Positions 3,767 through 10,940 of a stretch of 36,067 nt of DNA are shown in pieces; position 1 is the stretch's first letter; every line of letters begins with the position of its first letter. Where the stretch lies: NCBI GenBank assembly GCA_947463135.1, contig CANHTA010000012.1:1-36067 (forward strand), in the 5' to 3' direction. The notes under the pieces were generated by a model. That model did not search any database. It saw only the letters and a list, made by a program, of their open reading frames with translations, and was not told the origin of the DNA. This DNA is from Gemmatimonadota bacterium (lineage in GTDB: Bacteria; Gemmatimonadota; Gemmatimonadetes; Gemmatimonadales; Gemmatimonadaceae). The position numbers were made by a program, and so were the translations under genes.

Positions 3767-3967
3767 ATGCAGTATGTCGATGGTGCACAGATTGCTCTTT
3801 ATGCGTTCTGGATCTTCTTCGCCGGACTCATCATCTACATCCGGCGCGAAGACAAGCGCGAAGGCTATCCCCTCGAATCACCGCAGGGCCCGCGTGAGGG
3901 GTGGCCGAAGTCAGCGGGTCCGAAGTCCTTCATCCATCGTCCTCATGACGGTGAGGGTTCACACTGA
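3767..3967 (+). CDS. puhA: Reaction-centre H subunit, membrane (N-terminal) piece of a split PuhA
   Basis: The 66-residue protein matches only the first quarter of PuhA. A short periplasmic start is followed by the single membrane helix ([16 protein letters not shown]), then the conserved [12 protein letters not shown] stretch and a PKSFIHRPH segment, where normal H subunits continue into the linker. Usual PuhA is about 250-260 residues in one chain. Here a TGA closes the frame and overlaps the ATG of the next gene in a TGATG junction, so the pair should be translationally coupled. A CGGAG ribosome site lies about 10 bases before ATG 3767. I read this as a real gene split rather than a sequencing frameshift, because both halves have proper ends and starts. 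Confidence 0.92.
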
Positions 3968-4509
3968 TGTCTGACATCAACGCGGTACCCGTCGACCATT
4001 TCAACGGCTCACCCCTCGTGCCTACGGGCAATCCGATGTTGGCTGGTGTCGGCCCCGGAGCGTGGGCCAATCGCGCCGACGAGCCAGACCGTACCATTCA
4101 TGGGACGGCGAAGATCGTTCCCATGCGACTCGACCCGACGTTCTCGGTGGCCAAGGGTGACCCCGATCCGCGAGGGCTTCCGGTGTATGCCCTCGATGAT
4201 CAGATCGCCGGCACGGTCATGGAGCTCTGGGTGGATCGCGCCGAACCGCAGGTGCGGTACTACCAAGTGGAGCTCGCCGGCGGTGGACGTCATGTGATGC
4301 TCCCGGTGGGATACGTACAGTGGCCGAATTTCGGACTGTGGGGCAACGATCGGCTGTTGGTGCGTGCGATCACCGCGGCGCAGTTTGCCGACGTGCCGGC
4401 GCTGTCGCGCGATGATCAGATTACGCTGCTGGAAGAGGATAAGGTCATGGCGTATTTCGCCGGCGGGCACTTGTATGCCACGCCCAGCCGGAGTGAGCCG
4501 CTCATATGA
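3967..4509 (+). CDS. puhA: Reaction-centre H subunit, cytoplasmic (C-terminal) piece of a split PuhA
   Basis: The 180 residues match the cytoplasmic beta-rich domain of PuhA that caps the L/M subunits and shapes the proton path to QB. Conserved text includes PTGNPMLAGVGPGAW, HGTAKIVPMR, DPDPRGLPVY, WVDRAEPQVRYY and the near-terminal LLEEDKVMAYFAGGHLYATP. It has no membrane helix, so it must be held by the separate helix piece and by L/M. Combined length of the two pieces (246) is close to a normal PuhA. ATG 3967 overlaps the preceding stop by one base, and its own stop overlaps the puhB start (ATGA). About 13-20 residues at its N-terminus lack an obvious equivalent. Confidence 0.93.
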   Translation: MSDINAVPVDHFNGSPLVPTGNPMLAGVGPGAWANRADEPDRTIHGTAKIVPMRLDPTFSVAKGDPDPRGLPVYALDDQIAGTVMELWVDRAEPQVRYYQVELAGGGRHVMLPVGYVQWPNFGLWGNDRLLVRAITAAQFADVPALSRDDQITLLEEDKVMAYFAGGHLYATPSRSEPLI

Positions 4510-6053: not shown

Positions 6054-7175
6054 TTAGCGCGTGCCTCCGACCGACACACCACTCACCGGCGCGGTGGTGG
6101 AGGCTTTGCTCATCGCTGCGGCCTTATTCACTGGTGCAGCCGGGGGGGTTGCTCCAGCACCTGGTGTTGACACGGCGGCGTTCGAGTCTACGGCCGTTGG
6201 GCCCAATCCCTTAAAGGGTACGCCGTCCCAGTCAGGTCGTCCCCACAGCGCCGGATAGTGCTTCACCATCTGGGCGCCATAGAGCGGCTTGTAATTCCCG
6301 TTGTGACAGGTGACACACTGGGCTTTCGGGGCGTCGCCGAGCTGTCCGAGGCGCACCGCCGGATAGACCGGTTGCAACGGAGCCAGGTAGGATTGATTGA
6401 CGTCGCGCAGCATCAGAATGCCGTGGTACGCTGTGACGCGCGCCGGTGGCGCTTCTTTCCAGCTGGCAAATTGCCGGCTGTTGTGGCAGTAGGTGCAGTT
6501 CACGCCCAATGACTTGGACTGGCTGATCATGAGCGAGTACGTCCACTCGGTCTGCTTCACCGAACTGCGATTCGCGTTGGACGGCGCCACCTGTTGGGTG
6601 ATGACGCGTGCGCCGTCGCGATCGAGATAGTGGCGCAGATAGTCGGTCTGGGAAGAGTAGAACCACAAGCCGTTGGGCAGTGGCTTTCCCAGGTGACAGG
6701 TATAGCAGGTCACGCCCGTATTCTTCACGTGCTGCGAGTACTGTCCATTGATCTGGCGAGTCATCTGCAGCATGCGTCGCGCCACCAGCTTGGTGTACAG
6801 CGGCTTCCCATTGGGAAGGGTGTCGGACGCCATGTTGGCGAGGTTGTGGCAGTAGGCGCAGTTGCCGGTGCCTGCAACCCAGGTGCTCATCGCCACCATG
6901 GTGCGGTTGAACTCTCCCACCGAGATGTCATTCAAGACCTGGACGTTCTTCCACGGCAAGGGTCCCGGTGGTGACTCCCCCGCCGGCGGCAGGGGATCGG
7001 GGATGCGTACCTGCTTGAAACTGGCCGTGACCTTGGCGCGGTCGTAGTTCTGTTCCATGGCCGTGCCACGATACCCGACTTGGACCGAGTCTGTGGTGTT
7101 CTCCCCGATGCACGCGTTGGCGGCGAGCAAGAGGGCCAGTGGGCTGGTACGGAGGGCCCATCGTGTCATCATCAT
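6054..7175 (-). CDS. pufC: Reaction-centre tetraheme cytochrome c subunit PufC
   Basis: PufC is the periplasmic cytochrome that re-reduces the photo-oxidised special pair. Four CxxCH haem sites are visible at about residues 106-110, 157-161, 227-231 and 287-291, the normal count for tetraheme PufC. The N-terminus is a short basic start, a hydrophobic stretch and Cys22 in an imperfect lipobox (AANAC), so a lipid-anchored precursor is likely. Residues after about 325 form an Ala/Ser/Pro-rich tail beyond the usual domain. The first of three consecutive ATG codons overlaps the pufM stop (ATGA). AGGGAGG lies seven to eight bases upstream inside pufM. Confidence 0.96.
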
Positions 7176-8326
7176 GGGACCCTCCCTACGCTGCCCTGCG
7201 CGACGGGCGGCACCGTGGAATCGGGCGCCGTTCGTGCGGTGGAATCCGTCACGGCCGCTGCGGAGTCGGCCGGTGCTGACATCGCGGTGCTATCGAGCAC
7301 CATGGGAGCCGCCTGAGGAGTGTAGGACGGGAACGTGTCGGGGGCCGTGCCCTGATACCGACCGCGCAGCAATTCCTGCTGCTCGGGGGTGAGGGTGTTC
7401 TGTGCGGGATACGGCGCCACGAGGCCGTGCTTCACGCCCCAGAGATACCAGTTGTCCACCACGGTGCCGGTGAGCAGGATACCGATGCCCCCGGTGAAGG
7501 TGGTGAGGACGGCAAACCACCAGGCCCAGCGGTGAATCGATTCCATGGTGGCGTTGAAGCCCATCGTCCAGCGCCAGAACAGCATGGACCGTTCGGCGGC
7601 GGTCCCCCGGTCGGTGATCTGCTCGATCTCGCGTTCGCCGCCGAGCCGCGCCACCGCCAGGATAGTGGCGGCATGCATGGCGAAGAGCACCGCGCTGCCA
7701 TAGAGGAACACAATGGAGAGCGCATGGAACGGATTGTAGTACAGATTCCCGTAGCGGATCGAGAAGGCCGAGGTCCAATCCAAGTGCGGAAAGAGACCGA
7801 ACGGGACCATCTCACTCCAGCTGCCAACGATCAGCGGCTGAAAGAAGAAGGCGAGGTACAGGAAGATCGCCGAGGCAAACGCCCATGGCAGATGCGTGCC
7901 CATGTTGAGCGCGCGTGCACGCCGGTAGACGCGGACCCACCACAGCAGAATCGAGACGGTGAGGAAGAACCCCGCCATGAGGTACCATCCCCCTTGATTC
8001 AGGGGAGGAACGCGCAGGCCGTATTGCGGTGGCGGTGGCTCAAGCGCCAGCCAGGGAAGCTGGCGGATGAACTCACCGGGGTCCCAGCCAACCGACGCCC
8101 ACATGTTGAGACCGATGATCTCGAAGGCGAGGAAGCCGAAGAGCAGGGAAAACAGTCCCGCGGTGCCGAGATAAATCGGGCCAAACTGCGCATCGCCGAA
8201 TTTGCCGGCCAGGTACGAAAAGGTACCCTTGCCGAGACGCGCGCCTGGAGAGTCAACCAGTGGCAGGCCGGGTTCAGGGACGGTCCGGACCTGAACGCGC
8301 GTAAAGAGGTTTTGGTATTCCAGCAT
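7172..8326 (-). CDS. pufM: Photosynthetic reaction-centre M subunit with long C-terminal extension
   Basis: PufM binds half of the special pair, an accessory bacteriochlorophyll, QA and the non-haem iron. Ligands are all present: His181 (PHLDW), His201 (NPFHALS), His218 (MHAAT), Glu233 and His265 (SIHRW), each one position below Rhodobacter sphaeroides numbering. Five membrane helices are evident. The protein has 384 residues against about 305-325 in most purple bacteria. The extra 70-80 residues after VKHGLVAP are Thr/Ser/Ala/Pro/Asp-rich with repeated DSTA/APDS-like units and should lie on the periplasmic side. ATG 8326 follows the pufL stop by 14 bases, with GAGGA upstream. Confidence 0.97.
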
Positions 8327-8340
8327 ATCCGTGAATATCC

Positions 8341-9165
8341 TCAGCGCCAGATCGGGAGATTAAGCCACCAGCTCCACCAGTCGGGCCAGCCCTGTGTCCA
8401 GAACGGACCGGAAATTACGATACAGATTGCACTCCAGATGCCGGCACTGACCGCCAGGAACAGGCCGAGTCGATGGATGCCGATGGCGCCGATGGAGTAG
8501 CCAACGAGGTCGCGGAAAAACACGTTCTCCGTTTCACTCGCGCCGACGGGGGTTCCCTTCTTCGGGTTCGTCACCGAGAGAATCAGCGAACCATGCATCG
8601 CGAGGGCGAGGCAGTTCGTGAAGAAGAAGGTGACGGCGATCATGTGCGCCGGATTGTAGTGAAAATGGAGATACTGGTATCCCACATTGGACACCCAATC
8701 GAGATGCGAGAAGATCCCGTACGGGAAGCCGTGTCCCCAAGCTCCCAACAACAGTGGCCGGATCACCACCAGCGTAACGTAGGCCAGCACGGCTGCGCCG
8801 TACGCCCACGGAATATGCATACCCATGCCGAGCTTGCGGCTGATCTCGGCTTGACGCAGCGCCCAACTGCCAAAGGCCCCGATGGCGCAGAGCGTAATGA
8901 TCTGCCATAACCCGCCTTCGCGCATGGGCGCGAAGCCCAGCCCGTACTTCAAATCGGGCGGTGCAATGGAAATCTGCCACAGGTTCCACGTCGGTCCCAT
9001 CGCTGCGCCCCATACGCAGAGCATCGTGCCGACGAGAATGAAGAAGATCGCGGACACCCCAAAAAACCCGACGTAAAACGGACCGAACCAGAAATCGAAG
9101 AGATCTCCGCCAATCAGCGTTCCACCGCGGACTCGATATTTCCGTTCAAAACTGAGCATCGCCAT
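8341..9165 (-). CDS. pufL: Photosynthetic reaction-centre L subunit
   Basis: PufL binds the other half of the special pair, the active-branch bacteriopheophytin and QB. The 274-residue product starts [20 protein letters not shown] 9165 is chosen because GGAG lies nine bases upstream; the TTG at 9180 overlaps that ribosome site. Ligand residues are visible at His154 (SHLDWVSN), His174 (NPAHMI), His191 (MHGS) and His231 (GIHRLG), one above Rhodobacter numbering. Five transmembrane helices are evident, and the length is normal. It is separated from pufA by 105 bases containing a long hairpin. Confidence 0.97.
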
Positions 9166-9211
9166 GGGCGATTTCTCCAAGCGTGCAAACGATGGGGGAG
9201 ACTGGCGTCGG

Positions 9212-9253
9212 CCGGGGATGGTTTCGCACCGACACGTGCGAATACCATCCCGG
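9212..9253 (-). promoter_or_regulatory. Long intercistronic hairpin between pufA and pufL
   Basis: Arms 9212-9229 and 9236-9253 pair over 17 positions with two single-base bulges and a six-base loop. In purple bacteria such a hairpin protects the pufBA part of the transcript from 3' decay, so antenna is made in excess over reaction centre. The position is the same here. The stabilising role is inferred. Confidence 0.75.
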
Positions 9254-9270
9254 CGGCGACGCGCGACGTG

Positions 9271-9486
9271 TTACCGACCCGGCGGAAGCGGCGACATTTC
9301 TGCCGCCATGGCCGGAGCCGACGCCCCGACGGGCGCCTGCGCGCTCGACAACGTACCGTTCTCAATCCACGAGTAACGCTGCGAGCTGAGCAGGATGAAG
9401 TGAATGACAAACGCGAGAGCGCCGATGAAGCCTGCTACGGCAACCATGACGCGGCGCGGGTCATACATCAGCCATATACGATGCAT
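9271..9486 (-). CDS. pufA: Light-harvesting antenna alpha subunit (LH1-type)
   Basis: The 71-residue membrane polypeptide begins MHRIWLMYDPRRVMVA, a standard LH1 alpha N-terminus. The bacteriochlorophyll ligand is His29 in FVIHFILLSS. Trp40 follows with the LH1 spacing of ten residues between His and Trp. After one membrane helix, an Ala/Pro-rich tail of about 25 residues continues, as in other LH1 alphas. GAGGA overlapping the previous stop serves as ribosome site. This is the alpha most likely to form the inner ring round the reaction centre. Confidence 0.94.
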   Translation of the reverse strand: MHRIWLMYDPRRVMVAVAGFIGALAFVIHFILLSSQRYSWIENGTLSSAQAPVGASAPAMAAEMSPLPPGR

Positions 9487-9495
9487 GATGATTCC

Positions 9496-9660
9496 TCAGC
9501 GCGTGGCTGCAGGCGGGGTGGCGTACGTAGCCTTAAGGGTGCCCGGCCAGTTCAGCTGGCTGAAGGCAAACAGGTGCATCACCAGCACTGCGCCGGCGAT
9601 AAAAGAGCCGATACCGCCCATAATCAGGTGGGGATCAAGCCCGATCCAGATACGATACAT
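9496..9660 (-). CDS. Second antenna alpha subunit, LH2-like Trp spacing
   Basis: This short gene encodes 54 residues starting MYRIWIGLDPHLIMGG. One hydrophobic helix holds His29 (VLVMHLFAF), at the same position as in the neighbouring alpha. The following Trp is residue 38, so only eight residues separate His and Trp, as in LH2 alpha subunits; a Pro follows it directly. Start ATG 9660 has TAGGAG eight bases upstream. The stop is part of the ribosome site of the next alpha gene. The gene sits between pufB and pufA in the operon. It is clearly an antenna alpha; assignment to an outer or peripheral ring is inference. Confidence 0.9.
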   Translation of the reverse strand: MYRIWIGLDPHLIMGGIGSFIAGAVLVMHLFAFSQLNWPGTLKATYATPPAATR

Positions 9661-9704: not shown

Positions 9705-9839
9705 TTAGAACCAGGGACGCCAGCTCCACGCCAAGAGGTGAGCACCGACTGCGCCCAGAACCCACGTGCCTGTGCCCGCCACCCAGAACTTGTTGAAGCG
9801 AAGCGCTTCTTCCTCGGTCATTCCACCTTTTTCGAACAT
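9705..9839 (-). CDS. pufB: Light-harvesting antenna beta subunit PufB
   Basis: The beta subunit pairs with alpha subunits and ligates bacteriochlorophyll through His34 in GAHLLAWSWRPWF, the conserved C-terminal signature. ATG 9839 is chosen because GGAGG lies four bases upstream, giving 44 residues. An open frame extending to 9917 has no ribosome site and an implausible N-terminus. The usual EFH histidine in the N-terminal helix is Asn here (RFNKF, residue 16). Only one beta gene is present for two alpha genes, so both alphas may share it, or another beta lies elsewhere. First gene of the puf operon. Confidence 0.93.
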   Translation of the reverse strand: MFEKGGMTEEEALRFNKFWVAGTGTWVLGAVGAHLLAWSWRPWF

Positions 9840-9925: not shown

Positions 9926-9961
9926 AAAGTGTAAACTGTGACTTACAGTCCGATGTGTCAA
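9926..9961 (-). promoter_or_regulatory. Probable puf operon promoter
   Basis: TTGACA (9961-9956) is followed after 17 bases by CAGTTT (9938-9933), a poor -10 that keeps the key A and final T. The predicted +1 is near 9926, giving a leader of about 87 bases before pufB. Confidence 0.5.
9930..9947. promoter_or_regulatory. PpsR/CrtJ-type box (puf/bchO, proximal to puf)
   Basis: An exact TGT-N12-ACA palindrome (TGTAAACTGTGACTTACA). It is separated by exactly 8 bp from a second box, the spacing known for cooperative CrtJ/PpsR binding. PpsR represses photosynthesis genes under oxygen or light in purple bacteria. The regulator itself is not in this window. Confidence 0.75.
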
Positions 9962-9973
9962 GAATTATTTACA
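9956..9973. promoter_or_regulatory. PpsR/CrtJ-type box (puf/bchO, distal to puf)
   Basis: A second exact TGT-N12-ACA (TGTCAAGAATTATTTACA). Its left half, read on the - strand, is TTGACA, so repressor binding would cover the -35 of the puf promoter. The same pair could also act on the divergent bchO. Confidence 0.75.
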
Positions 9974-10033
9974 TGACATCAGCATTTTCCTCACATCCAC
10001 GCGCAACTCGCCGGTTCACCCCTACATTTGCCC

Positions 10034-10906
10034 GTGCCATCCCTTTCCCAGCCTCCCCACGATTGGCCAGACTGGGCCTTCTCCCAGTTTCTGGATTGCG
10101 CAGGCATCCGGTGGCACTACCAGCGGCAGGGAACGGGGCCAGTGGTGCTCCTGCTCCATGGTACCGGCGGCAGCACGCACTCCTGGGCCGGCTGTGCCTC
10201 CGCGCTCGCCACGCGCTACACCGTGGTCTCGGTGGACCTGCCCGGGCACGGCTTTACGGTGGTGCCACCCAGCGTGGAACGTGCGCGCCAGGTGTATGCC
10301 ATCGATGGCATGGCCCAAGCGGTCCAACAGCTGCTCGACGCCCTCCAGCTCCAGCCTCATTTGGCCGCCGGCCATTCGGCCGGCGTGCCCGTCCTCCTGC
10401 GCATGGCGCTGCAGCGCGGCATCGCCCCCGTACGCATCGTTGGGCTCGCCCCAGCCTTGGTCGCCCCGCCTGCGTGGTACGTCACCCTGCTCGCCCCCCT
10501 GGTAGCCTCGGTGGTGGAACGCGAGGTCGTGGCGCTCAGCGCCGCCTCCCTCGCCGCGGGTACCCGTATCATCCGGGCCATGCTGGCCACCACCGGAAGC
10601 GTCCTCCGGCCGGAACAGCTGGCTCGCTACGAATGGCTCTGTCGCTCGCCCGCCCACGTGCATGCCGCCCTCGCCATGATGGCCCGATGGGATCTCCCCG
10701 CGCTGCTCCGCGATGTCACCACCCTGAACACGCCGCTCGAGGTGATCGCCGGTCGGCGCGATCGCTGGGTTCCCGAGGCACCGCTGCGCCGAGCCGTGGC
10801 GGGGGTGCACGGGGCCTCCTTCCGCGTGGAAGAGGCTGGGCACTTGCTCATCGAGGAAGACCCCGCGCGGGCAGCGGCATGGATCGCGGGGGCGGGAACG
10901 ACGTGA
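10034..10906 (+). CDS. bchO: Alpha/beta hydrolase BchO (Mg-chelatase accessory)
   Basis: BchO is an alpha/beta-hydrolase-fold protein found with Mg-chelatase genes; its exact reaction is not established. Motifs seen are HGTGGSTHSW (oxyanion region), DLPGHG, the nucleophile elbow GHSAG, an Asp in GRRDRWVP and the His in EEAGHLLIEEDP, which would complete a triad. The start is uncertain. GTG 10034 is used, TTG 10028 is equally in frame, and neither has a good ribosome site. In many purple bacteria bchO follows bchI-bchD. Here it stands alone, divergent from puf and convergent with bchZ. Confidence 0.9.
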   Translation: MPSLSQPPHDWPDWAFSQFLDCAGIRWHYQRQGTGPVVLLLHGTGGSTHSWAGCASALATRYTVVSVDLPGHGFTVVPPSVERARQVYAIDGMAQAVQQLLDALQLQPHLAAGHSAGVPVLLRMALQRGIAPVRIVGLAPALVAPPAWYVTLLAPLVASVVEREVVALSAASLAAGTRIIRAMLATTGSVLRPEQLARYEWLCRSPAHVHAALAMMARWDLPALLRDVTTLNTPLEVIAGRRDRWVPEAPLRRAVAGVHGASFRVEEAGHLLIEEDPARAAAWIAGAGTT

Positions 10907-10940
10907 ACCGCTAACAGCGTGAACACAGCATGGCGCAAAA

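Follow-up and report, generated by a model that had tools for sequence, protein, structure and literature searches.

Sequence comparison identifies a 54-codon puf-operon gene of a Gemmatimonadaceae bacterium as pufA2, the outer-ring antenna alpha gene

The double-ring photosystem and the puf operon of the window

The closest described systems are the RC-dLH double-ring photosystems of phototrophic Gemmatimonas, solved for G. phototrophica (PDB 7o0u-7o0x) and G. groenlandica (9h19, 9h22). There, pufBA1 encodes the LH1 ring, and the outer ring combines the same beta chain with its own alpha chain from pufA2, whose His29 binds bacteriochlorophyll (PMC12817894). The same paper derives pufA2 from pufA1 by duplication, and places the rise of pufA2 and of a split puhA between the gene transfer and the divergence of Gemmatimonas from Pseudogemmatithrix.

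We analysed a 36,067-nucleotide stretch of a Gemmatimonadaceae genome (contig CANHTA010000012.1, assembly GCA_947463135.1), hereafter the window, for which an original prediction had placed a hidden 54-codon antenna alpha gene between pufB and pufA. The operon runs on the minus strand in the order pufB-pufA2-pufA1-hairpin-pufL-pufM-pufC:

9705 to 9839, minus strand: pufB, 44 residues, ligand His34; the sole antenna beta gene found in the genome
9496 to 9660, minus strand: pufA2, alpha chain of the outer ring (LHh-alpha), 54 residues, ATG start; PDB match 7o0u_AA, E 1.8e-24
9271 to 9486, minus strand: pufA1, LH1 alpha (inner ring), 71 residues; PDB matches 9h19_Aa, E 3.1e-38, and 7o0u_aa, E 2.1e-37
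9205 to 9262, minus strand: hairpin between pufA1 and pufL, from folding of a 111-base stretch
8341 to 9180, minus strand: pufL, reaction centre L, start codon putative; PF00124 match 8347-9078
7172 to 8326, minus strand: pufM, reaction centre M; PF00124 match 7421-8176
6054 to 7175, minus strand: pufC, cytochrome subunit, named by position and four CxxCH motifs in its translation

The predicted small gene holds up: its frame opens with ATG behind an upstream AGGAG motif, and in a PDB sequence search its product matches LHh-alpha of 7o0u over the full length (E 1.8e-24, 70% identity), as well as the corresponding G. groenlandica chain of 9h19, again full-length (E 5e-14). Genomes G039 and G074 encode PufA2 proteins with exactly the sequences of these two PDB chains. 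The translation carries Gly15, the bacteriochlorophyll ligand His29, Phe31 and Trp38-Pro39, so that the ligand at the same residue as in PufA1, the Trp at 38 instead of 40 and the Pro directly behind it are all as first read. Orthology to both solved outer-ring alphas, a place between pufB and pufA1, and ligand His29 were all found, and by sequence we identify the frame as pufA2, the outer-ring alpha gene of an RC-dLH photosystem of the phototrophic Gemmatimonas kind. This confirms a correctly interpreted, largely known gene, one already explained in its relatives. The epithet "hidden" is apt for profile searches, where PufA2 scores 20.6 bits against Pfam LHC (curated cut-off 23; PufA1 reaches 47.3 bits) and 23.2 bits against NCBIfam pufA (cut-off 35), but not for the record as a whole, since the gene is already named in the PDB and in PMC12817894.

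Compared residue by residue, the G. phototrophica protein aligns gaplessly over the same 54 residues, shares His29, Gln35 and Asn37-Trp38-Pro39 and occupies the same operon place; it differs in having Ser15, Trp31, Tyr33 and Phe36 where the window has Gly15, Phe31, Phe33 and Leu36. The G. groenlandica protein shares His29, Trp38-Pro39, the operon order and the role of outer-ring alpha, but is 44-50% identical and carries Ser15 and a hydrogen-bonded Trp31 (~860 nm).

The antenna genes detected in the genome, which is 91.5% complete and could lack another, are pufB, pufA1 and pufA2; no second beta gene was found. Because pufB is the only one, its product is presumably common to both rings, as in the published systems. 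PufB of the window has Asn16 where G. phototrophica has His16; Asn in place of His, 18 residues before the ligand His of PufB, occurs in 12 of 36 pufA2 genomes (the window's clade, G243 included). The stretch with the hairpin folds at -48 kcal/mol (z -2.74, 4 of 200 shuffles equally good), and we take the hairpin to be perhaps an mRNA-stabilising element, as in other puf operons. A Pfam scan of 9955-10911 gave no match, probably on account of the coding frame there, which is 10028-10906.

We consider it very likely that this antenna works as in the solved relatives. By analogy with them, PufA2 would pair with PufB, the beta chain of LH1 as well, His29 of the alpha and His34 of the beta would hold the bacteriochlorophyll ring of the outer ring LHh, and LHh (24 units in solved relatives) would encircle a 16-unit LH1 ring and pass excitation inward to the reaction centre. 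Going by residues only, Phe31 would bring no red shift of the Trp31 type and Gly15 no Ser15-B800 contact, giving a ring that absorbs near 816 nm and holds little B800 or none. This analysis itself observed the gene and its operon, the orthology and selection, the ligand residues and no beta gene besides pufB; position and copy number of the ring, the shared beta and energy transfer are carried over from the relatives. The two kinds of alpha encoded ahead of a single reaction centre, and the inner LH1 plus outer ring that had been predicted from them, agree with both solved complexes, in which the orthologue builds the outer ring.

Distribution and origin of pufA2

Our samples comprised 395 genomes of the phylum and 179 of the family. 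The PufA2 query matched in 32 of the 395, with PufA2-type alphas in 29 (the window's included) and LH1 alpha only in three. PufL/PufM (PF00124) were present in 44 of the 179 Gemmatimonadaceae, and 36 of these phototrophs carry pufA2; five have pufBALM without it (G244, G170, G393, G135, G281), and three were not classifiable at contig ends or in fragments (G145, G336, G423). Eight phototrophs from other families of the class have pufBA and pufLM and lack pufA2. In another class, genome G009 matched PF00124 weakly, with a score under the cut-off of that family. A further 26 loci served for names and range only; their titles read Gemmatimonadota, Gemmatimonadetes, Gemmatimonadaceae, Gemmatimonas or plain "bacterium", except for L127, a record titled Candidatus Kuenenia stuttgartiensis that carries a Gemmatimonas-type pufA2 and whose title is probably wrong.

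The order pufB-pufA2-pufA1-pufL is kept in all 36 pufA2 genomes, with extra copies in G419 (genus g142). Its locus (L148:3107-4172) reads pufB-A2b-B'-A2a-A1-L-M in open frames, with two betas and two PufA2-type alphas besides PufA1, copies that could allow separate betas per ring or a further antenna. Another unusual locus lies away from the puf operon of G244 (L147:1550-2092, minus strand), where a protein of 180 residues joins an LH1-type alpha (PF00556, E 3.8e-13) to an OmpA domain (PF00691, E 5.6e-14). Such a fusion might tether antenna to the cell wall; we found nothing on it in the open-licence literature.

In a PufL+PufM tree of 51 rows, from which the fragments G336 and G423 are omitted as they have no PufL, the 37 pufA2-labelled rows cluster with G145 in a single clade (support 100/100), and all 13 rows without pufA2 fall outside it. 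Among these 37, one row comes from another G385 contig, which starts inside pufA1, so that any pufA2 would lie beyond its end. The topology points to one origin of pufA2 inside Gemmatimonadaceae. Three bins warrant separate mention: G385 holds two different puf copies (L090, L104), by contamination or as a second operon; G404 (L097) has PufA2 and PufB of the window's type (PufA2 94% identical) and PufLM grouping with G. phototrophica-like rows (97/98), a discordance arising from recombination or a mixed bin; and G358 is taken up below.

The reaction-centre gene puhA is divided in the window:

3767 to 4509, plus strand: split puhA, frames 3767-3967 and 3967-4509 overlapping at TGATG

PF03967 matches it at 3770-3949 and 3925-4128. 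This feature of RC-dLH systems is present in the window, yet it is not specific to pufA2 genomes. Among 20 genomes tested (13 without and seven with pufA2), 19 gave a PRCH match, in two pieces in 15 and in one piece plus an in-frame stop in four; G243, which has pufA2, gave none. Split or interrupted puhA was thus found in all 19 matching genomes, including 13 of 13 without pufA2, and we reject a link between the two features. Because of those 13, the puhA split looks older than pufA2, unless the other families acquired their genes independently; PMC9426454 argues that photosynthesis in this phylum evolved by two routes.

Spacing of His and Trp, and alternative readings

LH2 alpha chains are encoded by separate pucBA genes. 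The original prediction had described the His-Trp spacing of PufA2 as LH2-like, and in part it is. Eight residues separate His29 from Trp38, against ten between His29 and Trp40 in PufA1, and eight also lie between His31 and Trp40 in the LH2 alpha of PDB 1kzu; the likeness fails at the next position, where 1kzu has one residue between Trp and Pro (Pro at +11 from His) and PufA2 none (Pro at +10). Beyond LHh, the PDB matches of PufA2 at E<=1 bear LH1 alpha, B-870/875/880 alpha or generic antenna names, apart from two matches to an unrelated protein that we attribute to chance. No chain named LH2 or B-800/850 is among them, and an LH2 origin of PufA2, as a member of the LH2 alphas (pucA), is rejected on these matches. 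Judged by its sequence relatives, which are LH1-type alphas, the spacing is a resemblance and not common descent. It reflects a segment two residues shorter after the ligand, displacing the Trp that presumably makes the hydrogen bond in LH1. Hydrogen bonding by Trp occurs in G. phototrophica LH1 (PMC12654162).

Separate pucBA-type pairs do occur in five of the 13 genomes without pufA2 (G135, G393, G093, G151, G288), identified by reading out the frames of profile hits:

L145, 1946 to 2353: LH2-type pucBA pair, followed by a PucC-like ORF
L146, 1870 to 2277: LH2-type pucBA pair, followed by a PucC-like ORF
L149, L150 and L151: LH2-type pucBA pairs

Their alphas are 52-68% identical to the 1kzu LH2 alpha over 42-53 residues, and for the one searched against the PDB, LH2 chains such as B-800/850 lead. 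The ORF after pucBA in G135 and G393 (467-468 residues) is putatively PucC-like, by position and look. In the 36 pufA2 genomes every LHC-family match at E<=0.001 lies on a puf-bearing contig, absence elsewhere being uncertain in draft genomes. A search of the open-licence literature, with passages of PMC10581226, PMC9426454 and PMC8779627, turned up no reference to LH2 in phototrophic Gemmatimonadota. Phototrophic relatives without pufA2 exist, and some have LH2-type genes instead.

These comparisons bear on what else the gene might be. An LH2-type alpha from purple bacteria, with the outer ring an LH2 derivative, would share the eight-residue spacing; against this stand the LH1 alphas and the missing LH2 names among the PDB matches (54 residues give little resolution), the Gemmatimonadota LH2-type alphas, which match the window's PufA2 weakly in two of five cases (E 0.001-0.004) and not at all in three, and the place of pufA2 inside pufBA, explained by duplication from pufA1 in PMC12817894. 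We hold this reading to be very improbable. It is also unlikely, if somewhat easier to entertain, that PufA2 is a minor alpha in a single heterogeneous LH1 ring, as with the multiple pufBA copies in certain purple sulfur bacteria. LH1 rings of mixed composition, encoded by more than one set of pufBA genes, occur in other organisms (PMC11764377), and an operon with one beta is compatible with a mixed ring; in two species, however, the orthologues (70% and 44-50% identical) assemble into a ring of their own with 24 units.

A decaying, functionless pufA1 duplicate is the reading we find hardly credible. Residues 15 and 31 vary widely, as decay would allow, but selection on the gene is strongly purifying, with a median pN/pS of 0.10 for the window's clade (54 of 55 pairs, first 46 codons; the remaining pair has fewer than three synonymous differences), and on this value a pseudogene is rejected. 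His29, Ala32 and Pro39 are invariant in 36 of 36 PufA2 proteins, the window's copy included, and the frames are open throughout the relatives that carry the gene. Together with the E value of 1.8e-24 to LHh-alpha, this conservation and selection put the gene well past coincidence. The conservation in relatives by which the prediction had proposed to be judged is accordingly there, and an outer-ring alpha on a shared PufB remains our preferred reading.

Residues 15 and 31 and the colour of the outer ring

In the solved complexes, B800 of G. phototrophica is hydrogen-bonded by Ser15 alone, and a Trp31 hydrogen bond, in G. groenlandica only, moves the outer ring to ~860 nm (PMC12817894). The 816 nm LHh band has been attributed to absence of hydrogen bonds (review PMC10214105). 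Ser15 is present in both species with B800 bound in one, and Trp31 in both with the bond made in one (PMC12817894); because the two share these residues yet differ in B800 and bond, single residues do not fix the spectrum. The predicted blue shift of the outer ring fails as a general rule, given the ~860 nm of G. groenlandica.

The window's PufA2 lacks both published tuning residues, with Gly15 for Ser15 and Phe31 for Trp31. Because Phe31 cannot donate the Trp31 hydrogen bond, we predict an outer ring of the 816-nm type in this organism. Because Gly15 lacks the Ser15 contact, the ring probably has little or no B800, a prediction that is less sure, given that G. groenlandica has Ser15 and yet binds no B800. 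The Phe31 observation may not be entirely new, because three PufA2 proteins, including the one from Pseudogemmatithrix, are aligned in figure 8b of PMC12817894.

Of the 36 PufA2 proteins, 19 carry Phe at residue 31 and 17 carry Trp. Position 15 is occupied by Gly (15), Ser (13), Ala (4), Met (2), Thr (1) or Leu (1), and residue 38 is Trp in 29 and Tyr in seven. On the PufLM tree, residue 31 switched between Trp and Phe at least six times (200 shuffles: mean 12.2, lowest 7), and residue 15 changed at least ten times. Co-variation of residue 31 with residues 15, 19, 33, 36 and 38 was in no case significant over six independent pairs on this tree. All informative pairs showed Phe31 together with Phe33 and opposed to Phe36, in numbers too small to weigh; Ser at residue 15 went both ways.

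G358 (L100) sits among Phe31 genomes in the PufLM tree, yet has Trp31, Tyr33 and Phe36. Its pufA2 differs from that of G289 at 18 positions, 16 of them within one 69-base stretch spanning residue 31 (p 0.00025 under random placement, with the window length picked after seeing the data), whereas pufA1, pufB, pufL and pufM of the two are 95-98% identical. A control scan of 45 pairs from ten other clade genomes (60-base window over bases 1-138, considering only pairs with at least five differences) gave one pair, G403/G405, at p<0.02. No donor of the stretch was found, the closest segment being that of G302 (87%). These data suggest that recombination can exchange the stretch around residue 31, although the bin might instead be a mosaic assembly.

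Tentatively, and with rather more doubt than conviction, we propose that the colour of the outer ring in double-ring Gemmatimonas could be set by an exchangeable segment around PufA2 residue 31: Phe31 forms, the window's among them, would be locked in the blue (816 nm) without B800, and lineages would change Trp31 to Phe31 and back through mutation and through recombination of short stretches within pufA2, as in G358. The window's pufA2 is itself an ordinary member of a remarkable known system, and the comparative set is the useful part. If the proposal is true, it would describe a natural, repeated spectral switch in one residue. The natural Trp31/Phe31 and Ser15/Gly15 variants are direct test material for the published explanation of spectral tuning.
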